From Rhodobacteraceae bacterium IMCC1909 (GTDB taxonomy: Bacteria; Pseudomonadota; Alphaproteobacteria; Rhodobacterales; Rhodobacteraceae), in assembly GCA_030704425.1 (NCBI GenBank), contig JAPDHM010000002.1, positions 434,001 through 498,000 of the forward strand: a stretch of DNA of 64,000 nt, read 5' to 3'. The notes under the pieces are model-generated. The model saw only the letters and a program-made list of their open reading frames with translations. It did no database searches and was not told the origin of the DNA. Positions 51,234 to 64,000 of the stretch are shown in pieces. The translations under genes and the position numbers were made by a program. Each line of letters opens with the position of its first letter. Position 1 is the stretch's first letter.

Positions 51234-51319
51234 GCCCAGATGGCGGAATGGTAGACGCGCTAGCTTCAGGTGCTAGTGTCCGTATGGACGTGGAGGTTCG
51301 AGTCCTCTTCTGGGCACCA
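51234..51319 (+). tRNA. tRNA-Leu(CAG)
   Basis: An 86-base class II tRNA with CCA encoded. Acceptor arm GCCCAGA pairs with TCTGGGC. The anticodon loop is TTCAGGT between CTAGC and GCTAG, giving anticodon CAG. It has a long variable arm and the T-loop GGTTCGAGTCC. Its 3' 13 bases lie inside the island's direct repeat. Confidence 0.97.
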
Positions 51320-51321
51320 AT
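51307..51321 (+). repeat. Left attachment repeat of the tRNA-Leu island
   Basis: CTTCTGGGCACCAAT, the 3' end of tRNA-Leu(CAG) plus two bases. The identical 15 bases recur at 62545-62559. A GTTCGA 11-12 bases upstream is also shared, apart from one inserted base. Confidence 0.9.
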
Positions 51322-51383
51322 TACTTATATAAAATATTTATATAACAATGACTTACCTATATATTAGATACACATATCCACTT

Positions 51384-51417
51384 TTTACTACACAAAATAC
51401 TCAGTATTTGCTACACA
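51384..51417 (+). repeat. Two near-identical boxes before the island integrase
   Basis: TTTACTACACA (51384-51394) and TTTGCTACACA (51407-51417), 10 of 11 alike, 23 bases apart. They may be arm-type integrase sites or elements of its promoter. Confidence 0.4.
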
Positions 51418-51423
51418 TCTTAG

Positions 51424-52989
51424 ATGACCCGTGGTGTTCTACAGAACTATATAAAAGCCAGCCCAAAAACGGGGCGCCTGAGCTATCGTAGACGTATACC
51501 CGCCAAACTAAGGAAGCATTTCACTAAACCTGATGGCTCAACACGTGGGCTGGAATGGAATGAAAAACTAGACACAAAGTCCATAAGTATTGCACTCAAA
51601 AAAGCCACGGTAATCAATGAACGGTTTGAGCGCACGAAGGCAATGGCCCAACAACTAGTCATCGCATCTGAGGCGAAAAATCAGCCGACTCAAACACAAC
51701 AGCATGAAGATGTAGTGCGCTACTTCCGCAAGATGGGCATCCATCCAGATCAGGCTCCTGACATCTTGGCTCCTGCTCCCAAAGCAAATGCCTTCCTAGC
51801 AAAAACTGCGAAAGCTCAACGAGAGCTAATGGACTTTCAGGAAGAGGTAGGGATCGAAGTAAGTGGCGATCCTTATGATGAATCCTATTCCACCAACAAA
51901 CAATACGATGACATACAGGCTCAGATAGACTTTCTCAGCGGGGATCGTTCACGGATAAAAGATCTGCTGAAACCCACTTGGGAAGTGGCTGTAGACGAAT
52001 ACATCAACAATAAGTCCAGACTGGAGAACAACCCACCAAACTTTAGAGACCGTAAGGATATGAAGCGTGTGCTCCGTATAGCCAGTACCTTTGCGGCCTC
52101 ATTGGGCGGAAGTTCCATTAACTTGGGTAATAACTATTTGCTGTCTGAGATTAGCAGAGAAGATGCACGAAGATGGATTGAAGAACAATTACAAGCTGGA
52201 CGCACACTACCTACCGTTGGCAGAGACTCCGCTGCCCTGTCCGCAATCTACAAAACTGCTCAGTGGGAATACCAACAAAAGGATCCCGAACTAGGAGCAC
52301 GTGGTAACCCTTTCTCAGGCTTACGAGACGAGCTCAAAGAGAGAGATGATTTAGCGGTTCGTAAAGGACAGCGGATAAAAGTTTCAGCACGTCCTTGGTC
52401 TCCCGATGAGCTAGACCAACTAAAAGCCCTACTGCCAGCTATGAACGAAGAAGCAAGATTATGTGTGAAACTAGCCATGTTTACGGGAGCAAGACTCAAA
52501 GACGTGTGTGGCTTAATGATTGATGAACTTGAGTTGAATGGCGAACTAGACAGCGCAATTAGGATTGAAGGCAACTGGTGGCGAGAAGTCTCAAAGGACA
52601 GTATTGAGAGGCGAATACCGCTGTACGGTGAGATGCTGCAGGACTTAAAGGACTACGTGTCAACTAAAGACTTCTCGTCTGACCAAAAGCTGACACCACG
52701 CTACGCTAAAACTGTCGACAGCGCTGGCTCGCTCAGTAACCTCCTAAACCAGCGATACATTGACTCGTTCAGCAAAGATCCGACACTCAAGCTTCACGGC
52801 TTCCGCAACACACTACAGGCTAAGTTTGATGCCGCTGATACACCCAACAAAACATCTGGCTACCTCATTGGCTGGAAGAACCAAGACACCGTTGGAATGC
52901 AGAAAGAGTACAATAAACAGGGTTATCCGCATCTACAGTTATTACAGGTTCTAAAAGCATGTCATGCCGTGGAAGAATGGGCATCGTAG
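51424..52989 (+). CDS. Tyrosine-type site-specific integrase
   Basis: 521 residues. An N-terminal arm-binding-like region (YRRRIPAKLRKHF, DUF6538 type), a core-binding SAM-like domain (~185-285), and a catalytic domain with Arg in TGARLKDVCGL (R357), HGFR (H458, R461), Trp in place of the second His (W484 in LIGWKN) and nucleophile Tyr in MQKEYNKQG (Y496; Y501 is the alternative). It starts 103 bases after the tRNA-derived att core and drives island integration and excision. Alone on its strand. Confidence 0.92.
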   Translation: MTRGVLQNYIKASPKTGRLSYRRRIPAKLRKHFTKPDGSTRGLEWNEKLDTKSISIALKKATVINERFERTKAMAQQLVIASEAKNQPTQTQQHEDVVRYFRKMGIHPDQAPDILAPAPKANAFLAKTAKAQRELMDFQEEVGIEVSGDPYDESYSTNKQYDDIQAQIDFLSGDRSRIKDLLKPTWEVAVDEYINNKSRLENNPPNFRDRKDMKRVLRIASTFAASLGGSSINLGNNYLLSEISREDARRWIEEQLQAGRTLPTVGRDSAALSAIYKTAQWEYQQKDPELGARGNPFSGLRDELKERDDLAVRKGQRIKVSARPWSPDELDQLKALLPAMNEEARLCVKLAMFTGARLKDVCGLMIDELELNGELDSAIRIEGNWWREVSKDSIERRIPLYGEMLQDLKDYVSTKDFSSDQKLTPRYAKTVDSAGSLSNLLNQRYIDSFSKDPTLKLHGFRNTLQAKFDAADTPNKTSGYLIGWKNQDTVGMQKEYNKQGYPHLQLLQVLKACHAVEEWAS

Positions 52990-53089
52990 ACACCTCACTC
53001 CTTACCGTTACTAGTATAGGGGAACTGGAGAGCGGTTGCTCTAATAGCTTAACTCTATCCAACTCTAAGATAGGTAAGAACCATAGAAT

Positions 53090-54466
53090 ATGTCACTAAT
53101 GCTAGATGAACTCACCCAAGAGGTGATTAAACGTATTGAAGCCTCAGAGGGTAGGTCTCGCTCTCGTAAAGCTGAGGATCAGCCACGCTTCGAACATGCA
53201 GTCTATGTCTTGCTTACTGATCTGTGGAAGGCTGTAAAGAGTACACCAGTACGAGAGTGTAGCATCAACAAGCGTAGTGGCTGGTACTCAGAGAACCCAA
53301 GATACCGTGACTCTCTTCTGACATACAAACAGACGATTGCTGTGTTCGATGGACTGCTTAGGATTGGCTTTATAGAGGTGACCAGAGAAGGCCACTTTGA
53401 CCGTACTACCTATCAAGGCAAGACCACACGCTTTGTTGCCAGAGATGAACTCCTAGAGAGACTGCAGGAGTTGGATGGACACCCTGCTATCTCCATCAAG
53501 CCTGACTTGGATGCTGAAACTATCATTCTACGCAACAAAGTTGACGGTAAGAAAGTACTTCAAGAATATGAAGACACACCAGCTACTGAGCGCTACAGAG
53601 AAAACCTCAAGATAATCAACTCGTGTTTCCTCAAGCACTGGTTTGACCTTGAGGTGCAAGACACGGAACTGGCTAAGCTTGAATCACGAATAGCTAACCA
53701 TGCCACAAAAGAGCCAATAGACTTCTCACAGCGTACACTTGTGAGGATATTCTCTAATGGGTCATTTAAGCAGGGTGGACGCTACTATCGTGCTTGGTGG
53801 CAGAACGTCCCTAGCGAGTACCGTAAGTATATTACGATAGATGAGAAGCGCACAGCTGAGTTCGACTTCTCTCAGCTCAACCCACATCTCCTGTATCACA
53901 GCAACTACAAGGAGCTTGGCTCTGAGGATGCCTATGACAGGGTGCTGGATGGTGAGCATCGGAAAGTCGTTAAGCAAGCCTTCAATGCTATGGTTCAGGC
54001 GTCTACTCCACTTAAGAACTGTCCTAGCGAGATAGATATGTCTGGCTTGGAGATGAGTTGGGCTGCACTGCGTGACGCTATTATCAAAGCTCATAAGCCC
54101 ATAGCTGATCTATTCTTTAAGGGCGTTGGTAATCACTTACAGTTTCAGGATAGCAACATCGCTGAGCGCGTAATGCTGCACTTCGCTGGTATGGATGCAC
54201 CTGCCCTTCCAGTACATGACAGCTTCATCCTGCATCACGCCTACGGTGAGAGTGGAGAAGTTGAGGAAGCAATGCGTAGGGCTTTCTACCAGGAGGTAGG
54301 CGAACATATCTCAAAGATAGATAAAGAAATACTAACTTGGACATACCGCAAAGATGAGGACGATACTGACGAACCTAAAACGTTAGAGCTTGATGCAATT
54401 CTCAGTGGGGATGATGACGTATCCCAATGGAGAGAGAGGCATCAACTTTGGTATGCCCAGCGCTAA
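53090..54466 (+). CDS. Compact family-A polymerase-like palm protein
   Basis: 458 residues. A palm-like core carries motif A AEFDFSQLNPHLLYH (D259; compare DYSQIELR of DNA polymerase I), motif B RKVVKQAFNAMV (R291, K295; R-x3-K spacing kept, Gly/Tyr lost) and motif C LPVHDSF (H376, D377; compare VHDE of PolA and VHDSF of T7-type RNA polymerase). Motifs A-B and B-C are 32 and 82 residues apart, about two thirds of the E. coli PolI distances. A pre-motif segment (FSNGSFKQGG, WWQNVPSEYR) parallels PolA's conserved QNIP region. I see no exonuclease motifs; residues 1-210 are unassigned, with a winged-helix look. It could be a replicative, repair or template-independent polymerase, or inactive. 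Related unnamed proteins occur, as far as I recall, in other proteobacterial islands. Confidence 0.8.
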   Translation: MSLMLDELTQEVIKRIEASEGRSRSRKAEDQPRFEHAVYVLLTDLWKAVKSTPVRECSINKRSGWYSENPRYRDSLLTYKQTIAVFDGLLRIGFIEVTREGHFDRTTYQGKTTRFVARDELLERLQELDGHPAISIKPDLDAETIILRNKVDGKKVLQEYEDTPATERYRENLKIINSCFLKHWFDLEVQDTELAKLESRIANHATKEPIDFSQRTLVRIFSNGSFKQGGRYYRAWWQNVPSEYRKYITIDEKRTAEFDFSQLNPHLLYHSNYKELGSEDAYDRVLDGEHRKVVKQAFNAMVQASTPLKNCPSEIDMSGLEMSWAALRDAIIKAHKPIADLFFKGVGNHLQFQDSNIAERVMLHFAGMDAPALPVHDSFILHHAYGESGEVEEAMRRAFYQEVGEHISKIDKEILTWTYRKDEDDTDEPKTLELDAILSGDDDVSQWRERHQLWYAQR

Positions 54467-55203
54467 CTGCTTGACCTAACCCCAGCACCATCCATCGCAA
54501 TATCAGAGTTACCCGTGTAAACGATCTGATACGTGTTGTTACCCTTCACGCCGCAGTTATGGCATCTGGCTCTCTGGGAAAGGACATCCTTAGTCAAATC
54601 AAATGTTAAGACCGCTCTAAGTTTTAAACTGGAATATCCGATAAAGGAATATATATCGGCGCCCAAAGACCTGGAGGCAACGTTAATGACTACCACTAAA
54701 ATCGTATGCACAGTGATTTATATTATATTTATTGCAGTTACTTTAAATGCAGTCGGAAATATCAAACAGTATATCGATTTAAACTCAGCAATAGTGGTCG
54801 TTGTGCTGGGTATATTATTTGCAGTTGCCGCAAAGGGCGATGAAAGCACTATTCAAAAGCTTGGCAATGGAGCTGTAAGAGCAGGTTGGTTAGGATCCAT
54901 AATCGGAATAGTTAATATATTTGGCAGCGAAGGCTTTGCAGCAGGTGATTTATCGATACTTGGGGCAGCGCTGGCCGTTTGTTCTTTGACCGTCCTTTAT
55001 GGCTACCTGTTAAAACTTGGCACAATGATGTTAGATTAACCCAGAGTATTTTACACCCGCTATAACGGTGTTCCAAATGGATTTAGAGTGGTGTCACCTC
55101 CGACGACAGCTATAAGGTTTGTTACCTCTAGCATCGTATGGTGCTTGCAGAGGCCACAGGTGATGCTGAGTTGCTGCTGTCGGATGGTTGAGAGTTTGGT
55201 CAT
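54463..55203 (-). pseudogene. Zinc-ribbon gene split by a membrane-protein module
   Basis: The N-terminal half runs from ATG 55203 to about 55080: MTKLSTIRQQ, then a CxxC (CGLC) and LIAVVGGDTTLN. The C-terminal half runs from about 54600 to the stop at 54463: TKDVLSQRARCHNCG with a second CxxC and YQIVYTGNSD. Both halves align with the intact 82-residue paralogue at 57739-57987. Between them lie about 470 bases containing the TolQ-like gene. CAAATG occurs at both junctions (54600-54605 and 55074-55079); joining at it keeps the frame (TTLNPFDLTKDVL). Confidence 0.8.
54686..55039 (+). CDS. Small MotA/TolQ-like membrane protein
   Basis: 117 residues, four hydrophobic segments: KIVCTVIYIIFIAVTLNAV, SAIVVVVLGILFAVAA, GWLGSIIGIVNIFG and a final SILGAALAVCSLTVLYGYLLK. 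The last two resemble the conserved core of MotA/TolQ/ExbB proteins (GLLGT-type turn, then A-L-T-YG), without the long cytoplasmic loop. ATG 54686 follows GGAGG; open frame extends upstream to 54533 but that part overlaps the zinc-ribbon half. CCGATA-N10-TATCGG at 54638-54659 may be its operator. It sits inside the split gene on the opposite strand. Confidence 0.72.
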   Translation: MTTTKIVCTVIYIIFIAVTLNAVGNIKQYIDLNSAIVVVVLGILFAVAAKGDESTIQKLGNGAVRAGWLGSIIGIVNIFGSEGFAAGDLSILGAALAVCSLTVLYGYLLKLGTMMLD

Positions 55204-55252
55204 TGGTGAGAGTTAATACCCGTACATTGTGTAACCCAGAGTTTTGTAATCC

Positions 55253-55945
55253 GTGGTTAACATAGATTTACGTAGAGACATCTACATTGATGGTGAAGCT
55301 ACAGATGAAATGGACTTTAGTGGGCCACACCCAACGCTTTTGGCCTTAGAACACGGTAAGCTTCTTAAGGGTGACAAGTATGACATTGGTAGACCTGTGC
55401 TTGATGGCATTAAGATGTCAGAACAACGCAGTATCGTTAAGGAACTTGTACTCATAGCTATCAATGCAAAGTCAAAGCAAGCAGCATACCGTGCGTATAA
55501 TAACCAAAATAAAGACCAGAAACTTACACATACTCAGCTAGACCACCTCCTAGCAGCATTCATAGATAAGTACCCGTTCCTGAAGGGCGACTTGTGTTCA
55601 GATAAAGGTATAGACCTGATGTATAAGGATAGTCAGATTACAGAAGCAGTAATACAAAGGTTTGTGGAAGCTGATAAACCAATACTACCTGTTCACGACT
55701 CCTACATAGTTAAAAACACAGACAGGCGGTTCTTAAAGTTAGTTATGAATGATGCTTGTAACGATGTACTCAACCATACACTTCCATTTGAGTCAGAGTT
55801 TGATGAAGTAACAGCAGATATTGGACACGCAACACACTACAAACACACAGAATACGGCTACTTTGAAAGAGTATTAAGTAAACATAAGACTAAAGTGTCG
55901 AAGCTCTATCAGAAACGATACACACAGTGGTTAGAAGAGAGTTAA
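55253..55945 (+). CDS. Palm-only polymerase-like paralogue
   Basis: 230 residues starting at GTG 55253, six bases after an in-frame stop. It aligns with the 458-residue protein from its residue ~246 on: DEMDFSGPHPTLL (D21), RSIVKELVLIAINAK (R59, K63) and LPVHDSYIV (H148, D149). The A-B and B-C spacings (38, 86) match its paralogue. The ~250-residue N-terminal region is missing. No good ribosome-binding site precedes the GTG. Either a 5'-truncated remnant or a free-standing palm subunit; the retained metal Asp residues and long open frame leave the second open. Confidence 0.7.
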   Translation: MVNIDLRRDIYIDGEATDEMDFSGPHPTLLALEHGKLLKGDKYDIGRPVLDGIKMSEQRSIVKELVLIAINAKSKQAAYRAYNNQNKDQKLTHTQLDHLLAAFIDKYPFLKGDLCSDKGIDLMYKDSQITEAVIQRFVEADKPILPVHDSYIVKNTDRRFLKLVMNDACNDVLNHTLPFESEFDEVTADIGHATHYKHTEYGYFERVLSKHKTKVSKLYQKRYTQWLEES

Positions 55946-55995
55946 TAAAGCAAGGCCCAAAGTGTTTCACTACGGGAACAAGTAGAAAACGCTAT

Positions 55996-56019
55996 GCGCT
56001 AGCTCTTTGACCTAACCCC
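55996..56019 (+). repeat. Copy of the 3' flank of the first palm gene
   Basis: GCGCTAGCTCTTTGACCTAA plus CCCC matches 54460-54483 (GCGCTAACTGCTTGACCTAA plus CCCC) at 20 of 24 positions. Both lie directly behind the two palm genes, so the duplication included DNA after the genes. Confidence 0.6.
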
Positions 56020-56153
56020 CTAAATGAGAGCACCTTAATGTGTCTCAGGGTGAGCTTAATTATTGCTTCCAGCCGTACTGAGCCAGGCAAGAGTTAAGGG
56101 CAAGATTGAAGGTCTCTTGCGCTGCGCTTTCTGCTTTTGATCGTGGATCAGTC

Positions 56154-57551
56154 TCAAGCAATAATGGTTACTGTGTCTGACGCTAAGGTTTCTAAAGATC
56201 CTCCACCATCTGTAAACGATACCTGTGCATAAATCTCGTCACCAATATCTGCTTGGTATACTTCAAATTGACTTTCAGTTGCTGTAGAAACTCCCCAGAT
56301 ACTTTGTAAAGCAGCGATGTCTATGTCCATAAACCACCCTTCTTCGCCCGTATTACTATATCCCATTAGAGTGTGAGTGTGAGGATCATCTGAAGTGGCG
56401 ACGGCTTGGTCAGTATCTGAGTAAAGTTCATCCCATGGGTGCTCTAACCCCAGCATATGTCCGACTTCGTGTATAAAGATTTCTTCCCAATCTTTTTTAC
56501 CCTCAGGGTGCTCTTGCCAATAAGTCGTCAGCAGATCCATGTCAGTTTCCAGATGTTTGGGGGAGGGTAGACCTGTCTGATAACTCATCATGAGAGCAGA
56601 ACCATATGGGCCTCCAAAACCAGAACTGCCTACTCCATCACCAAAACCAGAAAGAGCGTCCTTACCTGGCAAGGGAGAGATTATAACAAAAATATCAGCA
56701 TCGCTGATTTCAGTTACATATTCTATTTTTAAATCTATGAAGTTCTGTATTTTAGCGAATGTATTATTAATAATTTCTAAATGCCATGCCTCTGGTTCTA
56801 CGCTATACGATGTTGCTTCGCCTGGTTCTTTGTTAAAAGGGATCTCTTGTCCCCCAGAGGCTATCATTATTTTGAAAACTTTTTCGGGTCCAGCGACATC
56901 CATTCTATCTTGAATTTCACTATCACTCATTATCAAATGTTTTAATTCAACATTATTAACGGGATCATTTTTCCATGTTTGTAAATCGGTAATTTCCTCA
57001 CCATTGCGAAACCAAGTAAAATCAAAATTTCCCATGCCATCTATATCTGTAATTGTTGAGGCGTTAACAGATAGCTTTGCCCCAGCGCTGCTTCCCCCAC
57101 TTAGCACAAGACTGCCAGAAGCAGGATCATTGATGTTTTGCACAGCAGTAGAATCGAAGGATTTGAAAGTCTGGCTCTGTGTAGTGAATGTCCCATCTAA
57201 ATTGTCGTTAGTCGAAGTAAGGTTTACTACTACGTGAACTTGGCTTCCAACATCCTCTTGCAGTAGCTCGTATGTCTCAGGTTCAGTATCCACACGGTCA
57301 GCAACCAACACGTCATCACGATACCATTCGTAAGCTGCATTAACTGTATCAGAATTTTCTACTAAGTTACTCAAATCGAGAGATAATGAATTCCCTTGTG
57401 AGGATGTACCTATCAATGAGAAACTGGGGGTAATAACAGCAGAGGAGGTTGTTTCTCCACCGCCACCACAAGCCGCTAAGGCAAAACCGAATGGTGACAT
57501 CAACAAAGGTGTTTTCTTATTAAGTTTATTCTTGAGCTGCTTTGCCGTCAT
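56154..57551 (-). CDS. M10/serralysin-like lipoprotein metalloprotease
   Basis: 465 residues. Lipoprotein signal with lipobox ALAAC (C28). Two Ig/cadherin-like segments (~40-135 and ~145-190, TDIDGMGNFDFTWFRNG), a protease domain with zinc motif HEVGHMLGLEH (H361, E362, H365, H371) and Met-turn LMGYS (M396), and the serralysin-type DIAALQSIWG helix. The C-terminal tail (GDEIYAQVSFTDGGG) is a repeat type seen in large surface adhesins. Likely surface- or periplasm-anchored. ATG 57551 follows GGAG. Lone gene with an elaborate promoter, below. Confidence 0.88.
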   Translation of the reverse strand: MTAKQLKNKLNKKTPLLMSPFGFALAACGGGGETTSSAVITPSFSLIGTSSQGNSLSLDLSNLVENSDTVNAAYEWYRDDVLVADRVDTEPETYELLQEDVGSQVHVVVNLTSTNDNLDGTFTTQSQTFKSFDSTAVQNINDPASGSLVLSGGSSAGAKLSVNASTITDIDGMGNFDFTWFRNGEEITDLQTWKNDPVNNVELKHLIMSDSEIQDRMDVAGPEKVFKIMIASGGQEIPFNKEPGEATSYSVEPEAWHLEIINNTFAKIQNFIDLKIEYVTEISDADIFVIISPLPGKDALSGFGDGVGSSGFGGPYGSALMMSYQTGLPSPKHLETDMDLLTTYWQEHPEGKKDWEEIFIHEVGHMLGLEHPWDELYSDTDQAVATSDDPHTHTLMGYSNTGEEGWFMDIDIAALQSIWGVSTATESQFEVYQADIGDEIYAQVSFTDGGGSLETLASDTVTIIA

Positions 57552-57631
57552 GTCGATTCTCCATAAGAATAACGCTTAATTTGACATTTCATGCAGTGGT
57601 TCGCAAATAGTTTTTACCTACATAGGTTAAA

Positions 57632-57691
57632 ATTATAGGCTAACATTACAAACGTGATCACATTTTATGTTGCGGTTATTTGTGATCACAT
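57632..57691 (-). promoter_or_regulatory. Promoter and duplicated palindromic operator of the metalloprotease gene
   Basis: On the minus strand a TATAAT (57632-57637) lies 81 bases before the start codon. Two copies of the palindrome GTGATCAC sit at 57654-57661 and 57682-57689, 28 bases apart and extended to GTGATCACAT in both. The proximal copy overlaps the predicted -35 region, so a bound regulator should affect initiation. Confidence 0.6.
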
Positions 57692-57738
57692 AAAGAGTTC
57701 AAGCATAAATGGAATGACTTATCGAACCTTACATAGCG

Positions 57739-57987
57739 CTAATCTTCAACGTCCATCTTTGTATTAGCAGCACCCATTAGGGCATCGTAACTGCCGCCAC
57801 GATAAACTATGCGAAACTCAAATGTCTTCTGACCACAGGATGAACATCGTGCTTTGGCCCTTACGTGATCCACGGTAGTTTCACCACCGTAAAGCCCAAT
57901 CATATCTTGCACAGGTATCAGTGGAGAATGACCACAGGGACACTCAAACGATAAGTGGTTCATTGTGATATGCTGTAGCTGTGTCAT
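57739..57987 (-). CDS. Zinc-ribbon protein (intact paralogue)
   Basis: 82 residues with two Cys pairs: CPC near 16 and CSSC near 48 in AKARCSSCGQK. The first pair has one spacer residue instead of two. Between them is IGLYGGETTVDH, shared with the split copy at 54463-55203; the tail RIVYRGGSYDALMG also aligns. Probably binds nucleic acid or protein; the partner is unknown. Last gene of a resolvase operon (38 bases after the coiled-coil gene). Confidence 0.75.
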   Translation of the reverse strand: MTQLQHITMNHLSFECPCGHSPLIPVQDMIGLYGGETTVDHVRAKARCSSCGQKTFEFRIVYRGGSYDALMGAANTKMDVED

Positions 57988-58025
57988 TTGTTTCGTTGGC
58001 TCATCTCACAGCCTATTCGCTGCGT

Positions 58026-58247
58026 TCAACGCTCTAAGAACCTCTTCTTAAACGCTATAGCTAAGTATTCTTTCGATGCCCTGATGTAATCCTTATGGGC
58101 TTGCTCAGCTTTTTGGATTTGCTCTTGAGTAGCCTCATCAGCAGCAGACATCTCCACAGTTAACATCTGCCAGGCATCACGACTGCGCAGGTAACGGCGT
58201 TCCACTTCATCCGTGAGAACAGCGCATACTTCATCAATGTACTTCAT
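58026..58247 (-). CDS. Small helical/coiled-coil protein
   Basis: 73 residues, almost entirely helical and charged (VERRYLRSRDAWQMLTVEM; EATQEQIQKAEQAHKDYIRA). No recognised family. It starts seven bases after the resolvase stop and precedes the zinc-ribbon gene, so it is an accessory member of that operon. Confidence 0.65.
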   Translation of the reverse strand: MKYIDEVCAVLTDEVERRYLRSRDAWQMLTVEMSAADEATQEQIQKAEQAHKDYIRASKEYLAIAFKKRFLER

Positions 58248-58254
58248 GTTTTTC

Positions 58255-58818
58255 TTAAGCCCTCAACTCCCGAATAATGCGGTATAAACTTGTCTTACTT
58301 ATCTCCAAGTCTCGACAGATCTGCGCCTTACTGACACCTTTCTCCAAGGCAAGCTTCACCATATCAGTCTTCGCACGTGCTGTTGGCTTGCGCCCTTTGT
58401 ATTTACCCTCAGCCTTCGCTTTAGCAATACCCTCACGTTGACGCTCAAGCATCATCTCCCTCTCAAACTGTGCGACTGAGGACATCACATTTAGTATGAG
58501 CTTTCCTGTTGGGTTGGACGTATCAACCGCTGTGCCACCCATGTCTAAGATTACGAGTGATGCACCCGCTGAGTTAATGCGCTCAATAATCTGACCAAGG
58601 TGTTGAACGGAACGAGCAAGTCTGTCCAGTTTTGTCACAACCAGCTTATCATCAGAACGTAACATGACCAGCGCAGCTTCCAGTTGCTCACGCTCTGCCA
58701 CAGATGAGACCTGCTCTTTAAAGACACGTTCACAACCATACTCTTCTAAGTCACGTATTTGCGCCTCAAGGCCAGCAATCTGCTCAAGTGTTGATGTTCT
58801 AGCTAACCCAATAAGCAT
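58255..58818 (-). CDS. Serine recombinase (resolvase/invertase)
   Basis: 187 residues. Catalytic domain: R7 and S9 in LARTSTLEQ, RLARS near 71 and the long E-helix with QFEREMMLERQREGIAKAK; C-terminal helix-turn-helix GVSKAQICRDLEISKTSLYRI. Size and HTH fit Tn3-type resolvases or invertases. Repeats upstream (58829-58933) may be its sites. It heads an operon with two small genes. No transposase is nearby. Confidence 0.92.
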   Translation of the reverse strand: MLIGLARTSTLEQIAGLEAQIRDLEEYGCERVFKEQVSSVAEREQLEAALVMLRSDDKLVVTKLDRLARSVQHLGQIIERINSAGASLVILDMGGTAVDTSNPTGKLILNVMSSVAQFEREMMLERQREGIAKAKAEGKYKGRKPTARAKTDMVKLALEKGVSKAQICRDLEISKTSLYRIIRELRA

Positions 58819-58828
58819 AGGTATTCTC

Positions 58829-58933
58829 CCAATAGAGTTATAGACTATGTGGTAAATAGTACCATAAATACCTAATGTAAACCCTATTGGTACTATTTCA
58901 CTTTAGACCGCTAGAGCAAGGTCTATTGGTACT
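58829..58933. promoter_or_regulatory. Repeated boxes upstream of the resolvase gene
   Basis: CTATTGGTACT occurs twice in direct orientation (58884-58894 and 58923-58933, 39 bases apart). AAATAGTACC (58854-58863) and GGTACTATTT (58889-58898) form a perfect 10-bp inverted repeat, and CCAATAG at 58829-58835 is a further inverted partial copy. The set looks like a res/crossover or autoregulatory site. Confidence 0.55.
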
Positions 58934-58989
58934 GGCATTCGCTTTGAGCGACACCTAACAAAGCAATCCACTCAGTCGTTGACTAAGGT

Positions 58990-59196
58990 ATGACAGATGA
59001 AGAACGCAAAAACCTGATAGCAACGTGGGGCGATAGGGCTCTACGTGATAAGTTTGAGGTCAACCCCTATAGCCTGACGCAAGAAGAGCTTGAGGCATTG
59101 CAGAGCTATGACGAGTTGGAGGTCAAGATTGAACGCTTGGTTAAAGATGTTCTCGTCCAGAAGGCTTTGAACAACAGCTTCCGATACAAGCTATAA
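58990..59196 (+). CDS. Small charged hypothetical protein
   Basis: 68 residues, helical, starting MTDEERKNLIATWGDRALRD and ending in a Lys-rich helix. Not recognised. Divergent from the resolvase operon, with the repeat boxes between them, so the same boxes may affect both. Confidence 0.55.
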   Translation: MTDEERKNLIATWGDRALRDKFEVNPYSLTQEELEALQSYDELEVKIERLVKDVLVQKALNNSFRYKL

Positions 59197-59309
59197 CTCA
59201 TGCATACCCCCATGCAGGCTGCTATGGCGGGTGGGGGGTATATGTATATCTGCTCTTACACAGATGCTGTCTCTACTAGGGAGAGCTTGAAAGTAACCAC
59301 ACAGCAAAA

Positions 59310-59332
59310 AGGCCCCAACAAAAGTGGGGCCT
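59310..59332 (-). terminator. Rho-independent terminator of the 59355 gene
   Basis: AGGCCCCA and TGGGGCCT (59310-59332) form an eight-bp stem; on the minus strand it is followed by five T residues. It lies 22 bases after the exported-peptide gene. Confidence 0.85.
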
Positions 59333-59354
59333 CATTAGTTAGGCATAGATAAGC

Positions 59355-59516
59355 TTATGCGCTTGTGTCTACACACTGCTTTGCTTCTGCGTCCCAAGCT
59401 TGGCCTGTTGTGCAAGACATTGAGGCTTCTTGTTCACCGTGCATCCCGCATCCATCGGCAAGAGCAAATGGAGCAGAGAGAACCAAAGCGAACAGTGATG
59501 CTGTAATCGTTTTCAT
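59355..59516 (-). CDS. Small exported Cys-containing protein
   Basis: 53 residues. Signal MKTITASLFALVLSAPFALA, mature part DGCGMHGEQEASMSCTTGQAWDAEAKQCV split by three Cys. The C-terminal CTTGQAWDAEAKQC resembles the chitin-binding-type pattern often seen in Roseobacter small proteins. ATG 59516 follows AAGGAGA; an in-frame start at 59612 would add 32 residues before the signal. Confidence 0.75.
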   Translation of the reverse strand: MKTITASLFALVLSAPFALADGCGMHGEQEASMSCTTGQAWDAEAKQCVDTSA

Positions 59517-59752
59517 AGTTGTCTCCTTCTGGTTGTGACGAGTATGTATTGCTGACAGCATTGCAAACAAGAAACATATTGTCACAGCTACAAACAAAAG
59601 AGGCTGAGCCACTACAGCCCAGCCTTAAGGTTTTTACAGTAAGTCAGGAGAAGAACTGTTACTCTCTTTACGCTGCAGCTGAGCAGGTGGATCACTTTCA
59701 TCTGTCACATTAATACTTCACATCAAGAACAAGCTTTGCTTAACTCAAAAAC

Positions 59753-60280
59753 ATGTGGAGAATAACCGCTCTAATTTTGTGTTTAGCTCTTAACAGTCAA
59801 GTAAGTGCTGAGATAATAGAAATCCATTCTCTAGATGAGATGGATGACCAAAGAGGTTTCTGTATAGACGTGCGAGGTCACAAATCTAAAGCAAAAATTA
59901 ATTCAGGACTTCAAGCACATACCTGTTACTCTTACCAAGGCAGTATTGCCGTTGATCAGGGTTTTGACTCTCTAGAGCTGAATGAAAACAAATTTTATTT
60001 GCCCTCCTTTGATGTTTGTATGGAAGCAGCTTCAAATACTCCGTCAGCAACTTTGCTATTAAGCAGATGCGAGGATGAGATCCTTCAAGAATTTAATTGG
60101 GGCAGCAACGGTAGAATTTATCCTCTTAGTAATAAGGAATTATGCCTCACTATTGCACAAGGAAAATCTAGGAAAGGTGGAGGTGGATCGCCAGTACATC
60201 TTATAAGGAACCTCTCACTGGAATTTTGCAGTGATACCCTTCAATCATTTCAAATGTGGGGTGCAAGAAGTGAACTCTAG
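59753..60280 (+). CDS. Exported ricin-B-lectin-like protein
   Basis: 175 residues, signal peptide MWRITALILCLALNSQVSA, six Cys. The repeated pattern CIDVRG...NKFYLPSFDVC and ILQEFNWGSNGRIYPLSNKELCL follows the Q-x-F/W motif of beta-trefoil (ricin B) lectins. It may bind carbohydrate outside the cell. No ribosome-binding site is obvious. Isolated gene on the plus strand. Confidence 0.68.
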   Translation: MWRITALILCLALNSQVSAEIIEIHSLDEMDDQRGFCIDVRGHKSKAKINSGLQAHTCYSYQGSIAVDQGFDSLELNENKFYLPSFDVCMEAASNTPSATLLLSRCEDEILQEFNWGSNGRIYPLSNKELCLTIAQGKSRKGGGGSPVHLIRNLSLEFCSDTLQSFQMWGARSEL

Positions 60281-60651
60281 GGTGGTCATCTTAGTTTGAT
60301 GCTAAAAACTTCATAGCCAATTACAGTCAAATTTGCATTTATTGGCGCTAGTAAATTTGCTTCACTATGGTGTGAACCGCAATAGTTTTGGTGTGGTCTG
60401 TAGCCACATTTGAGCCAAACCCTCATCAGAGCGCTTAGAAGAGTGATACCCCTCTACAGACAAACCTAAAATTGCTACCCTGCTATACTGGGCGCAACAA
60501 TCACATAAAATTTAGCCAACAACGCAGCAGCTATAATGATCAGGCACACTTGTGTTGTTCGGTTGTGCATGGGCGAAGTTTCACACATGCAAACGCTCAG
60601 CCAAAAGAGCAGAAAGTTTCTGGGTCATAAAGCTTTTGCTAGATTGCCAGT
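60281..60651. other. Gene-free island spacer
   Basis: AT-rich stretch in which I see no gene, RNA or clear repeat. Confidence 0.5.
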
Positions 60652-60879
60652 CTATGCGTTAAGATAGCCGACTAGCAGCGAAACAAACGCCCCAATGTGG
60701 ACTACCATTATCGCTTTGTCTTTCCACATAAATCCAACAGCAAACCAGAGAAAGATGCCGATAAAGAAGAAAAAGATATTGTACGGGACAAGGTTCATAC
60801 CAGTCATTCCGTAACCAATAAGTTGGATCACGGTAGCCAACCATTTTACTGCATCGACAGTCAGCATTGTGTTTGTCAT
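60652..60879 (-). CDS. Small three-helix membrane protein
   Basis: 75 residues, three hydrophobic segments (VKWLATVIQLIGYGMTG, PYNIFFFFIGIFLWFAVGFMW, IMVVHIGAFVSLLVGYL). Similar small proteins occur in marine phages and Rhodobacteraceae; the role is unknown and a holin-like function is only a guess from the lysis remnants upstream. Confidence 0.62.
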   Translation of the reverse strand: MTNTMLTVDAVKWLATVIQLIGYGMTGMNLVPYNIFFFFIGIFLWFAVGFMWKDKAIMVVHIGAFVSLLVGYLNA

Positions 60880-60928
60880 CGCCTCAACCCTTGCATGAAC
60901 TCATGTTCAGGCCGCCTAACTGTAAACC

Positions 60929-61132
60929 TTAAACAATACTACCCCAGCGCCTAACCAAACTATCATACTCAGTGTGATAACTCAGATGCCGCCACTTGGG
61001 TGAGCGCCACCGTTGGTAGATGTACTGAATATCGTCACAGCAGCGGATGATGCGATATCTGCCGCACTCTGATAGCCACAGATACGGGTAATGCTCGTGA
61101 TGCTCTGGGAGGGTTATGACTTGATGCTTCAC
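60929..61132 (-). CDS. Small phage-type hypothetical protein
   Basis: 67 residues beginning at GTG 61132, whose codon overlaps the TGA of the glucosaminidase fragment (GTGA), a coupled arrangement typical of phage lysis or tail modules. Aromatic and His-rich (HHEHYPYLWLSECGRYRI). No recognised domain. Confidence 0.55.
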   Translation of the reverse strand: MKHQVITLPEHHEHYPYLWLSECGRYRIIRCCDDIQYIYQRWRSPKWRHLSYHTEYDSLVRRWGSIV

Positions 61133-61284
61133 CCTTGGCCCTCCTCGTCTGGCAAGCCCTTCATAATGTTCTTGAGCTTCTGCGAGTACATGGGGTCAGT
61201 CGCATATCCTGAGCTTTGCAAGGCTGACAGTTGTGCGTCCTCGTTCTCAGCACCTGCACGGAGGAAATGTACCACCACCTGCTT
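61129..61284 (-). pseudogene. C-terminal fragment of a FlgJ/glucosaminidase-type endolysin
   Basis: A frame running into the stop at 61129 reads QVVVHFLRAGAENEDAQLSA, then LQSSGYATDPMYSQKLKNIM. The latter is the typical C-terminal motif of mannosyl-glycoprotein endo-beta-N-acetylglucosaminidases (GYATDP-x-Y-x-x-KL). Everything upstream is replaced by the EamA gene near 61284-61300, so only the end of a prophage endolysin survives. Confidence 0.65.
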
Positions 61285-62222
61285 TAGGTAGAGGTCCTTC
61301 GAAAGACGAAGGAAAATAATCGTCCATCTGTCACAGCAAAGCCCAATCCGATGATGGCAAAACCAATCGACGCTTCAAGTTTCATTCCTTCGCCAAGGAA
61401 CAAAACACCAAGTCCAACTGCGAATGGTGGAATGAGCAAGGTGACCAGTAAAAGGTTGGCAGCTCCAGTTCGTGCTAAAATTGCAAAGTAGAGCACATAG
61501 GCAAGTGCGGTCGACAAAGAAGCCATACCGATCAGAGCGCCCCAGACGCCTTTAGAGAGTTCAAGATTTGGCGGGCCGTCAAACATAAAGACAATTGGGA
61601 TCATCAACACTGTGCTACCGATCAACATACCAAAGGCGTTCATGAATGGTGGCTGACCAGTAAGCGCCGTTTTCCCCCACACACCGGCAAATGCATAAGA
61701 GAGAGTTGCACCAAGTATGGCAAGTTGAGCAAGATTGCTCAGGTTAAAGTCGGTCAACGCGCGAGGCCCCATGATGAAGGCCACCCCAGCAAGGCCTAAA
61801 GCAGCACCAATTAGTTTCTTGGCCGTTAAAGCCTCATCGCGAAGCAGCAAACCAGCAACAGCCGCTGCAAACATAGCAGTCGTCCCGTTCAGAATGGACG
61901 CCAGCCCACTCTCAATCTGTGTCTGTCCCCAGAATATTAGCGAGAACGGAATGGCGTTGTTAAGCGCACCCATCACTAGGTAGGCTCCCCAAATTTTCGG
62001 CGAACGAGGAATATAAATTCCTTTGAGGAGGACAATCAACGCCAATATTGGCAAAGCCCACAATACCCGGTGTAGAGTTATGGTGAGCGGCGGAATTTCA
62101 CGCAAAGCAATTTCCCCGAAGAAAAACGAACCACCCCAAACGGCTGCGAGCATCAACAGCATGATCATCGAGTTTAAATCCAAGGTCAGCGCGGCGGATT
62201 TGGTCATGTCGAATGGATCCAA
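61284..62222 (-). CDS. EamA-type drug/metabolite transporter
   Basis: 312 residues, ten hydrophobic segments in two EamA repeats (MLLMLAAVWGGSFFFGEIAL; PIVLM-like second half with GFAIIGLGFAVTDGR). Exporter of unknown substrate. Start 62222 or 62207. Its last codons (FRRTST) overlap DNA that also reads in frame with the endolysin fragment, so its C-terminus may have been altered at the junction. Composition is less AT-rich than its neighbours. Confidence 0.86.
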   Translation of the reverse strand: MDPFDMTKSAALTLDLNSMIMLLMLAAVWGGSFFFGEIALREIPPLTITLHRVLWALPILALIVLLKGIYIPRSPKIWGAYLVMGALNNAIPFSLIFWGQTQIESGLASILNGTTAMFAAAVAGLLLRDEALTAKKLIGAALGLAGVAFIMGPRALTDFNLSNLAQLAILGATLSYAFAGVWGKTALTGQPPFMNAFGMLIGSTVLMIPIVFMFDGPPNLELSKGVWGALIGMASLSTALAYVLYFAILARTGAANLLLVTLLIPPFAVGLGVLFLGEGMKLEASIGFAIIGLGFAVTDGRLFSFVFRRTST

Positions 62223-62544
62223 TTATTCTAATTGTTGTTTTTCGTACCCTAGCAGGACTACGTAAGTCGACCCAATTCATTAGGATATGGTCAAACCAAA
62301 CTTTATTCACGTACAAGAGATAGGGCCTTTAAGCCAGACCTTGGCGCAATCGCAACTAATTGGTGTTTTGGCCGCATAGAAAACCTAGGACACTGACTCC
62401 GTGAACGTCCAGTTTTGGGAGCGAGCCACAAATTATCACTCGGATCTGGTACATAAATCGGGACCGCTTTCGGGACCGCTTTTTAATTTAAAATAAAAAT
62501 TAAGTAACTGTAATTAAATCAAATTATGGAAAGTTCGACGTCCC
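62223..62544. other. Gene-free right end of the island with a tandem repeat
   Basis: No gene is seen. At 62459-62482 the 12-base unit CGGGACCGCTTT is repeated exactly, 63 bases inside the right att repeat. A short tandem repeat at this place could be arm-type integrase or excisionase sites. Confidence 0.45.
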
Positions 62545-62559
62545 CTTCTGGGCACCAAT
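62545..62559 (+). repeat. Right attachment repeat of the island
   Basis: CTTCTGGGCACCAAT, identical to 51307-51321. Upstream GTTCGA (62533-62538) also mirrors the tRNA T-arm, with one extra base between, so more than the core was duplicated. Confidence 0.9.
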
Positions 62560-62618
62560 AAATAATTCAAAGCATTGTAATACCTCACTAATTAGACTCA
62601 GTAAGTGAGCCGTAGACC

Positions 62619-62819
62619 ATGCTGGCAACCAAATCTAATAGCTACACGTTCCAAAAGGATGGAATCTGGTATTTCTCCCGTAGAGTTCCTGCTGATTTAC
62701 GTCGGCATTATTGGACGGGCAGGATTGCTTATTCTTTGAGGACTAAGTCCATTAGGGATGCTCGTGTTAGGGCAATGAGTGATGCTGCTAAGTTAGACAG
62801 GCATATCGCTGGGATCTAA
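62619..62819 (+). pseudogene. N-terminal stub of a second tyrosine integrase
   Basis: 66 residues that start 60 bases behind the right att repeat: YFSRRVPADLRRHYWTGRI is the DUF6538-type N-terminus of phage integrases. The core-binding and catalytic domains are missing; the frame ends where the HxlR gene's 3' end overlaps by 27 bases. It marks a second element that used the same tRNA target. Confidence 0.82.
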
Positions 62820-63275
62820 GTGCAAAGATCGCAAACGATCGGTTAACTCTTTTGAATACTGAGATTGGGGGCGTTCCATACCCGATGGAAGTGCGATTGG
62901 CTCCTTAGATGGCGAAGTATGTGTCAGCGCCCAAGCTGACATGTCCACTAAAATCGGTACAAGATCTATTGCAGCGAGGCTTAAACAATAGATCTTTCGT
63001 TGTGAATGCGCAGAATCATCCTTGAAGTATAACAATCCAATGTCAGTCAACCGTTTTAAACGGCCAGCTAACACACCACTAGAAATCCTTTCGTTATTAT
63101 TTGCTAAAATTGATCGAAAGGTTCTTTGATTGCATATGGCAATATCACGCAGCACAATTATCGACCAATGGTCAGCAATCACTGCGGCGCATGTTGAAAT
63201 TGGACAATAGTTTTGCGCTTTTGAAGTAATATTGGATCTATTTGAAGTAATATTGGATCTAATAGTTTGGTTCAT
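62793..63275 (-). CDS. HxlR-family transcriptional regulator
   Basis: 160 residues. HxlR winged helix with the conserved Cys (CPISTCAAVIADHWSIIVLRD), the recognition region ISSGVLAGRLKRLTDIGLL, and a C-terminal extension. Residues ~5-18 contain a duplicated SNITS(N/K)R unit from a 21-bp tandem repeat. The last nine codons overlap the integrase stub, so the C-terminus may be recent. Divergent from the exported protein at 63446, its likely target. Confidence 0.83.
   Translation of the reverse strand: MNQTIRSNITSNRSNITSKAQNYCPISTCAAVIADHWSIIVLRDIAICNQRTFRSILANNNERISSGVLAGRLKRLTDIGLLYFKDDSAHSQRKIYCLSLAAIDLVPILVDMSAWALTHTSPSKEPIALPSGMERPQSQYSKELTDRLRSLHLDPSDMPV
63220..63261. repeat. Perfect 21-bp tandem repeat inside the HxlR gene
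   Basis: TTTGAAGTAATATTGGATCT plus A occurs twice back to back (63220-63240, 63241-63261), inside the first codons of the regulator. It adds seven residues without shifting the frame. Confidence 0.9.
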
Positions 63276-63445
63276 TTTTTGCCTTCCAAATAATCATTAT
63301 TGTCAAAGTTGATGTAATATCCTCCTAAACCATACGAAATTCAAGAGCGGTTTAAGGCTTATTGTAGTTATTATTTTTGATGTGTTTCTTATTTTACTAG
63401 CCAGATGAATGTCTGGCTGAACAATCTAACTTAAGGAACAACTTC

Positions 63446-63913
63446 ATGAAAAACATCATTTTGGCAGCAGCCATTTCACTACTTCCAGTTACAGCTTTCG
63501 CTGGTGGTCACTTAAAAGTTTGGAACATGGCAGGCTTAGCGAACGCACCGTCGTCTTCTAAGATGATGGAAGGCACAACTGGATCGATTATGATCAACAG
63601 TACAACCGATTTATGGGATTGGTCAGAAGCGCCTGAAGGCTTTCCAACACTCGTAACTGCAGAATGTAATCAATCAATTGCACTGACGGCTGAAGGCGCT
63701 CCGTTCGGAGGCGTGGGCGTTTGTAGTATGATGGACCCCGATGGCGATTTGGCCATTTATTTTGGCGAGATCACTCCACAACTTGAGTACGTGGGTTCAC
63801 TAACCGCTGGCAGTGGTAAGTATGAGGCATATGTCGGCCAGAAATTTGTTGGGACTGTAACAGGCATGCTGAGTACAGGTCAGCAAATGTACCACGTAGT
63901 CGCTGCAGATTGA
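63446..63913 (+). CDS. Exported protein of unknown function
   Basis: 155 residues: signal MKNIILAAAISLLPVTAFA, then a beta-rich mature domain (GHLKVWNMAGLANA; GYFGEI-like strands; GKFVGTVTGM end) with two Cys. AAGGA precedes the ATG. Not recognised, though the barrel-like strand pattern could suit a small secreted binding protein. Divergent from the HxlR gene and 56 bases before the next start. Confidence 0.7.
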   Translation: MKNIILAAAISLLPVTAFAGGHLKVWNMAGLANAPSSSKMMEGTTGSIMINSTTDLWDWSEAPEGFPTLVTAECNQSIALTAEGAPFGGVGVCSMMDPDGDLAIYFGEITPQLEYVGSLTAGSGKYEAYVGQKFVGTVTGMLSTGQQMYHVVAAD

Positions 63914-63969
63914 GATCAAACAAAAACTTGTGGACTGTATTACATCCCAAAAAATAAAGGAAATCCATC

Positions 63970-64000
63970 ATGATGGTAAAACTTACGCAAGACCTGGCTC
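63970..64000 (+). CDS. Start of a gene cut by the window end
   Basis: ATG 63970 follows AAAGGAAA and opens the codons MMVKLTQDLA before the window ends. Probably in one operon with the exported protein. Product unknown. Confidence 0.55.
   Translation, partial: MMVKLTQDLA

Follow-up and report, generated by a model that had tools for sequence, protein, structure and literature searches.

Gene content of a tRNA-Leu island

The DNA analysed here is a stretch of 64,000 nucleotides (the window) from Rhodobacteraceae bacterium IMCC1909 (assembly GCA_030704425.1, contig JAPDHM010000002.1, positions 434,001 to 498,000 of the forward strand). Its subject is a forward-strand gene at 53090–54466 that starts with ATG and encodes a 458-residue protein resembling the polymerases called TV-Pols. 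A first-pass annotation had described this protein and the product of a 230-residue open reading frame (ORF) at 55253–55945 as a pair of family A polymerase-like palm proteins in a tRNA island. Both ORFs are present at these positions, and the island is real. A tRNA-Leu(CAG) gene identified by ARAGORN at 51234–51319 (+) provides the apparent integration target. A repeat search and a comparison of flanks place one copy of a direct repeat, covering the tRNA 3′ end, at 51302–51338 (+; attL) and a second at 62540–62576 (+; attR), with 78% identity over 37 nucleotides. Between the tRNA gene and the polymerase gene is a tyrosine integrase gene (521 residues; 51424–52989, +), which matches PF00589 above its cut-off (E = 1.2e-7) and the phrog_1 integrase family (E = 6.5e-20).

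We compared the flanks with six stretches from relatives. The two flanks are joined without the island in three of them (G011, G002 and G017), with the tRNA end shared. Two others, short stretches that end 1.4 and 0.5 kb beyond the tRNA gene, match neither the island nor the right flank, and in the sixth this tRNA is occupied by a related integrase element. Because the left flank runs directly into the sequence beyond 62540 in relatives, this comparison indicates that 51320–62539 is an insertion starting at the tRNA-Leu 3′ end.

Conserved residues of the 458-residue protein

Profile searches assign both the 458-residue protein (E = 2.6e-37) and the 230-residue ORF (E = 5.8e-33) to phrog_4756, a phage protein family without an assigned function whose name had no occurrence in a full-text literature search. 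NCBIfam yielded one unrelated sub-threshold match for the 458-residue protein and nothing else, and PDB sequences, searched with phmmer and with profiles, returned weak matches only, which probably reflect chance or the winged-helix region described below.

To define conserved positions, an alignment and profile (A3) were built from the 458-residue protein and 66 relatives from a species genome collection and IMG/VR; the remaining loci, being near-duplicates, truncated or not chosen, were left out. Residues G230, R231, R245, D259, K295, H376, D377 and M395 are invariant in all 67 sequences, and D280, Y282 and R291 are each present in 66. The first-pass annotation had numbered D259 (motif A), R291 and K295 (motif B) and H376–D377 (motif C) correctly, and had overlooked a further hallmark, the invariant G230–R231 preceding motif A. 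Motif C reads HDSF in the 458-residue protein, and HDS is found in 65 of the 67 sequences. From the N terminus, the protein is thus laid out as a winged-helix-like domain (roughly residues 22–142), thumb-like helices, GGR231, D259, the fingers residues D280 and R291-x3-K295, and H376–D377.

In comparisons of the gene with three relatives, ratios of nonsynonymous to synonymous substitution rates (dN/dS) are 0.072, 0.082 and 0.073; against a fourth relative (L073) the comparison was saturated. By this sequence measure, the gene is under purifying selection.

Predicted fold and relation to family A polymerases

In polymerase palms, the motif A aspartate stands at the end of a strand and the motif C aspartate at the turn of a hairpin. 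An AlphaFold2 model of the 458-residue protein (predicted local distance difference test (pLDDT) score 93.4; predicted template modelling score 0.91) is in line with this arrangement. D259 ends strand 253–259, D377 lies at the turn of the hairpin formed by 373–375 and 378–382, and motif B occupies helix 291–303. R231 is on strand 229–233, and helices 164–182 and 191–203 are located where a two-helix thumb is expected, before the R231 hairpin.

When this model was compared with the PDB by Foldseek, ranks 1–12 were all taken by family A DNA polymerases or T7-like and mitochondrial RNA polymerases. The best match is the apicoplast DNA polymerase (E = 4e-4), and the leading matches also include Mycobacterium smegmatis Pol1, POLRMT, Bst polymerase and the yeast mitochondrial RNA polymerase. 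Polymerase alpha, of family B, appears at rank 13; on this ranking, a reverse transcriptase or family B palm was rejected. A structural comparison of the kind suggested by the first-pass annotation therefore produced no confident non-palm fold. Among viral models, the first eleven matches are phage proteins of 400–450 residues (E = 9e-21 to 4e-14). One of these, from a Rheinheimera phage, is already named ‘DNA polymerase’ (E = 3e-18), and a ‘Putative DNA polymerase I’ follows after the first eleven (E = 2.7e-7).

Profile–profile comparison gives a consistent picture. With hhalign, the family scores 38.8 against housekeeping PolA and 47.9 against T7-like RNA polymerases, whereas the maxima of 30 column shuffles are 25.8 and 24.0, respectively; both scores also exceed those of reversed profiles. 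The resemblance to PolA and T7-like enzymes is thus beyond chance. Against PolA, the family lines up at the G-R, motif A and motif C residues and not at motif B, and the T7-like alignment covers motif C only, over 36 columns. The phrog_4756 profile also has a match in another genome's housekeeping PolA (E = 3.7e-4), inside the region recognized by PF00476. The genome containing the window has one ordinary PolA recognized by PF00476, outside the window.

A separate model of the N-terminal domain (residues 22–142), built with 49 sequences, has a pLDDT of 88.0. Its Foldseek matches include the winged-helix regulators MarR, PadR, CodY and PaaX, replication termination protein, and ribosomal chains that we take to be eS10. 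With a best E value of 0.017, no match falls below 0.001, so the domain is predicted to be a winged helix by its topology, without a significant single match. Pfam finds no domain, and hence no nuclease domain, in the 458-residue protein. Judging from these models, the protein appears to be a compact family A-like polymerase palm that lacks an exonuclease and follows a winged-helix-like domain, much as the first-pass annotation had supposed for the palm.

A class of tRNA-bounded elements

We searched the window, 13 loci and 104 of 112 related loci for tRNA genes, and 49 carry a tRNA or tmRNA gene. For counts of relative position, four of these (L040, L166, L168 and L174) were left out, and one tRNA was used where two are present. 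The polymerase gene lies on the 3′ side of the tRNA or tmRNA in 42 of 45 loci, and in 36 of these 42 an integrase gene starts less than 3 kb from the tRNA end. Of 125 polymerase loci, many of them cut by contig ends, 56 have an integrase cluster no more than 7 kb away and 17 have a resolvase-type cluster there.

Elements with both ends were delimited by an exact repeat of at least 14 nucleotides of the tRNA-gene end located beyond the polymerase gene, a criterion applied without a shuffle control. This gave 26 elements of 5,889 to 18,081 bp, selected for holding the polymerase gene, of which each has exactly one. An integrase gene, which was not a selection criterion, is present in all 26, and a resolvase-type gene in five. 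The elements are partly dependent, in that L032, L034 and L035 are related, L086, L093, L097 and L102 share a tRNA-Gly type, and several use tRNA-Cys. In the smallest element (L132), the three genes of at least 100 codons encode an integrase, an Mrr-nSTAND3 protein and the polymerase.

The 26 elements hold 197 genes of at least 100 codons, of which 99 non-core genes of at least 170 codons were scanned with Pfam (E up to 1e-5). The most frequent matches are to restriction-modification families, Sel1 repeats, peptidases and resolvases. An exonuclease domain occurs in one protein, and the helicase-type families are ResIII, DEAD, SWI2_SNF2 and AAA_11/AAA_12. Families of D5-like, DnaB-type, primase, relaxase or capsid proteins are absent among the 47 of 57 Pfam rows listed for these 99 proteins. 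PADLOC matches 49 of the 99, with methyltransferases, specificity subunits and mad2/mad5 leading among the best 25 of 266 families. Some islands also have repeated small paralogous genes around the polymerase gene, such as those of cluster c11 in L074 and of cluster c5 (DUF6974) in L103.

Proposed role and alternative explanations

We propose, with a probability of roughly 0.6, that the 458-residue protein is a TV-Pol that serves a small integrative element as its replication protein, most likely by priming and replicating the excised island. This proposal draws on the predicted fold, the conserved active site, the purifying selection and the co-occurrence with integrase genes in tRNA-bounded elements, and it has a precedent in CCPol of SCCmec, described below. 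Excision by the integrase at the tRNA-Leu 3′ end would yield a circle. The polymerase would then bind this circle, probably through its winged helix at a sequence of the element, and would make primers, extend DNA or do both at a two-metal palm site formed by D259 and D377, with R231, R291 and K295 positioned around the primer–template and the nucleotide. The circle could in this way be kept or multiplied before reintegration or transfer. In this scheme, excision, recognition of the element, priming, the synthesis of DNA rather than RNA and the copying of the circle are all inferred. Among the roles offered by the first-pass annotation, island replication is therefore the one that we judge likely from sequence and model; no specific support was found for terminal transfer or for a non-polymerase function of the palm.

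In a bolder version of the proposal, these islands would form a class of minimal integrative elements that replicate themselves with a core of two genes. One would encode a tyrosine integrase and the other a TV-Pol that recognizes the origin through its winged helix, primes and copies DNA without a helicase, a partner or helper genes. We regard this version as speculative and rather unlikely.

Several results weigh against the proposed role. Pfam has no match for either the 458-residue protein or the 230-residue ORF, and over the 67 aligned members its best model is the unrelated DUF1307 (five members, best E = 6e-4), ahead of RNA_pol (PF00940; five members, best E = 0.011). Only one PDB match reaches E ≤ 0.001 and the query-normalized TM-scores of the first 12 are 0.20–0.34, so the Foldseek result is a ranking rather than a close match. 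Our PolA alignment has Glu at motif A+5, Tyr on the O-helix, D-I-H and HDE. In the present family, position D259+5 is H, N or Q in all 67 sequences, position K295+8 is N or Q in 66, and HDS replaces HDE in 65. With these changes and no Pfam match, the protein does not qualify as a PF00476 polymerase, and with neither a Pfam match nor the O-helix Tyr it does not qualify as a PF00940 polymerase. Because H, N or Q and N or Q stand where PolA has Glu and Tyr, the choice of substrate may be different. An origin sequence, for which no systematic search was made, was not identified. Finally, no third gene cluster is constant across the ten elements listed, in which oligonucleotide-binding (OB) folds were not modelled.

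Some of the same observations raise the alternative that the protein is a T7-type, RNA-making enzyme, either an RNA primase or a small transcriptase for island genes. The HDSF form of motif C and the D280-x-Y282 pair, which corresponds to D569/Y571 and is invariant in a nine-sequence T7-like alignment, resemble the T7 branch rather than the D-I-H and HDE of PolA. T7-like enzymes also give the higher profile–profile score, although over the 36 motif C columns only, PF00940 is weakly matched by five members, and two mitochondrial RNA polymerases are among the top Foldseek matches. Since almost every member departs from Pol I at the Glu and Tyr positions, RNA synthesis deserves consideration. However, the O-helix Tyr that is invariant in the T7-like alignment (Y639) is likewise N or Q in 66 of 67 members, the N-terminal part is much shorter than that of T7 RNA polymerase, and the first three Foldseek matches are DNA polymerases. 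Moreover, CCPol, the tested relative, is reported to make DNA (PMC7581432). We therefore consider an RNA-making enzyme improbable, yet worth keeping in view.

The abundance of restriction-modification genes in the element cargo suggests a different alternative, in which the protein is one more item of defence-island cargo that acts by untemplated DNA synthesis or abortive infection. Foldseek does match AbiK, a reverse-transcriptase-like enzyme, though far down the ranking (rank 33, E = 0.26). However, it scores far worse than the family A polymerases, whose motifs are kept in nearly all members, and the polymerase gene recurs beside the integrase gene while the cargo varies. A defence enzyme is accordingly a very unlikely explanation.

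The 230-residue ORF as a gene remnant

The first-pass annotation had read the 230-residue ORF as a natural palm-only protein paired with its longer paralogue. The two are indeed related through phrog_4756, but comparison with another contig of the same genome (locus L030) argues that they do not form a functional pair. Window positions 55262–56019 are 98.4% identical over 758 bp to L030 9954–9197, where the counterpart of the ORF is residues 269–496 of a full-length homologue of 496 residues. The first 268 residues are missing in the window, in which homology begins at 55262, just inside an ORF (+) that uses a GTG start. The ORF is identical to the homologue at 219 of 227 aligned residues, and eight of nine changes in these 227 codons are nonsynonymous and one is synonymous, against roughly seven of nine nonsynonymous changes expected without constraint, although the number of changes is small. 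One change converts Leu to Pro beside motif A. Given the 98.4% identical full-length homologue and the mostly nonsynonymous changes, the ORF is most likely, on sequence grounds, a dead 3′ fragment of a decaying second TV-Pol gene with no part in the mechanism.

A stand-alone palm enzyme, or a palm subunit of the 458-residue protein, is thus rejected as extremely improbable: the motif A Asp, R-x3-K and HD are retained along with the near identity to the homologue, but the ORF begins mid-gene, has the Pro substitution and shows a change pattern close to that expected without constraint. Furthermore, short forms are rare. Of 133 homologous ORFs, 16 are near locus ends, and among the other 117, 110 have at least 300 residues and only seven, including this one, are shorter.

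Downstream of each polymerase gene in the window comes the 3′ end of a zinc-ribbon gene in convergent orientation (54460–54483 and 55996–56019). Recombination between such zinc-ribbon copies is a possible source of the truncated second polymerase gene.

Other features of the island

The zinc-ribbon gene next to the intact polymerase gene (54460–55204, −) is split by an insert at about 54577–55087 that contains a small membrane-protein ORF (+), as judged by blastn to the intact L030 copy. Similar interruptions of this gene of about 81 codons occur at nearly one spot (about nucleotides 113–165 of the aligned query), with inserts of 236–546 bp. Besides the window copy, split copies are located in L031 (11735–12469 and 13367–13776) and L040 (7091–7783 and 8363–9079), and four of the five inserts hold an ORF in the opposite direction (a membrane protein, a MAPEG-like protein as judged by eye, and others). 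These five split copies compare with one intact copy (L030), one partial uninterrupted copy (L037) and one short, weak match in L030. The inserts have the character of cassette-like capture at a single spot.

Further along the island are genes for a metallopeptidase-like protein (465 residues; 56154–57551, −; PF13583, E = 9.2e-6) and a serine resolvase (187 residues; 58255–58818, −; PF00239, E = 4e-37). Metallopeptidase-like cargo recurs near the polymerase gene in L035 (7365–9140), and Peptidase_M10 is found in 3 of 50 proteins of another cargo set.

Behind attR, a 5′ remnant of another integrase gene is present at 62619–62819, and the window island probably landed in front of an older island to which this remnant belonged. 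Islands appear stacked at this one tRNA-Leu, with the remnant in the region 62540–64000 and a 387-residue inverted integrase ORF about 4 kb further on (L033 4415–5578).

Distribution of the family

The genome containing the window has six loci of the polymerase family, two in the window (counting the fragment) and four elsewhere, one of them as two segments. With this genome included in the counts, phrog_4756 matches 15 of 61 sampled relatives and 55 of 395 sampled genomes of the same taxonomic family. For profile A3, the matching genomes number 43 of 296 in that family and 25 of 397 in the phylum. Scanning the species genome collection with a pattern brought up 287 relatives, and 80 of them were retained. 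By their titles, they come largely from alphaproteobacteria (Rhodobacteraceae genera and SAR116), with some others such as Litoricola. Because the group is common and its compact islands have ends that can be mapped, two ideas become directly testable, a single-protein primase–polymerase and the replication of islands that have no conjugation or phage genes.

Viruses also carry the family. IMG/VR contributed 32 relatives with an alignment query and none with a single protein query. In tblastn searches of phages, the window protein matched 16 records and a more central member matched 119, of which 109 are Vibrio or Aeromonas phages. Large phages of these hosts have family copies, with as many as three sites in one record among the matches listed, and Vibrio phage 277E43-1 (L183 4392–6551) is one of the listed carriers. 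In one phage, the polymerase-family gene abuts a putative homing endonuclease gene. Three phage neighbourhoods consist mostly of hypothetical genes and gave no functional clue. A plasmid search returned three records for each of two queries.

Comparison with known systems

The TV-Pol family was described in 2008 by Iyer, Abhiman and Aravind, who proposed that its members are minimal family A polymerases and prim-pols (PMC2579912). According to that description, TV-Pols have 400–600 residues and no nuclease, and share a hairpin Arg, two palm Asp residues, and a fingers Asp with RxxxK. A two-helix thumb precedes the hairpin, the palm has an RNA recognition motif (RRM)-like fold, and the fingers follow the first palm strand. 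The proteins stand alone, are fused or adjacent to a D5-like helicase, or have an N-terminal domain. The subset with an N-terminal domain adjoins an integrase, gamma-delta resolvase or transposase in integration hot spots rich in restriction-modification genes, and Rhodobacterales are among the sources listed (PMC2579912).

The 458-residue protein agrees with this description in size, absence of a nuclease, hairpin Arg, paired Asp residues, fingers Asp and RxxxK, as well as in its integrase and resolvase setting and restriction-modification-rich surroundings. It differs in that the published N-terminal domain was predicted to be all-helical, whereas the present one models as winged-helix-like, and in that a D5-like helicase is absent from the Pfam rows examined above. 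The tRNA-bounded elements delimited here go beyond the published description. Judged from sequence and model, both the catalytic features tested and the setting of the protein are those of a TV-Pol.

Cyanophage Ma-LMM01, a named TV-Pol host, provides a further comparison. Its gp030 is the best ORF for profile A3, albeit weakly (E = 0.033) and missed by a filtered search. By hhalign it scores 36.5 against a maximum of 23.1 in 50 shuffles, over the hairpin to motif B only and without motif C, with G-L-R for G-G-R. Given the adjacent transposases described in PMC2579912, gp030 is presumably the TV-Pol of this phage.

The TV-Pol reported as tested is CCPol of SCCmec, which is described as polymerizing alone and priming de novo with its partner MP (PMC7581432; PMC10061031). 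To the knowledge of Bebel et al. (2020), no other TV-Pol had been characterized (PMC7581432). PolA–SSB pairs of Bacillota, which likewise have a family A palm on recombinase-borne islands, are covered by Rice 2023 (PMC10061031). Like the present protein, CCPol has a family A palm, is carried by a recombinase-borne island and, as reported, is also without a complete exonuclease. In contrast, a helicase and a partner with an OB fold are described as working with it, and it is reported to be without the N-terminal domain of many TV-Pols.

Other integrative elements offer looser parallels. PICMI phage satellites, as described in PMC10803314, are also small integrase-borne islands with one replication gene, but their primase is defined by other domains, they have AlpA and their site is next to fis. 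Pipolins, which are self-synthesizing elements, are likewise reported to be integrative bacterial elements with their own DNA polymerase, although theirs belongs to family B (PMC7385651). With DNA polymerase I and T7 RNA polymerase, the 458-residue protein shares the palm arrangement, motifs A, B and C, and the G-R before motif A, yet it has shorter spacings, no exonuclease, and altered motif A+5 and O-helix residues. From sequence and predicted structure, the 458-residue protein appears to be a TV-Pol carried by a small tRNA-gene island.

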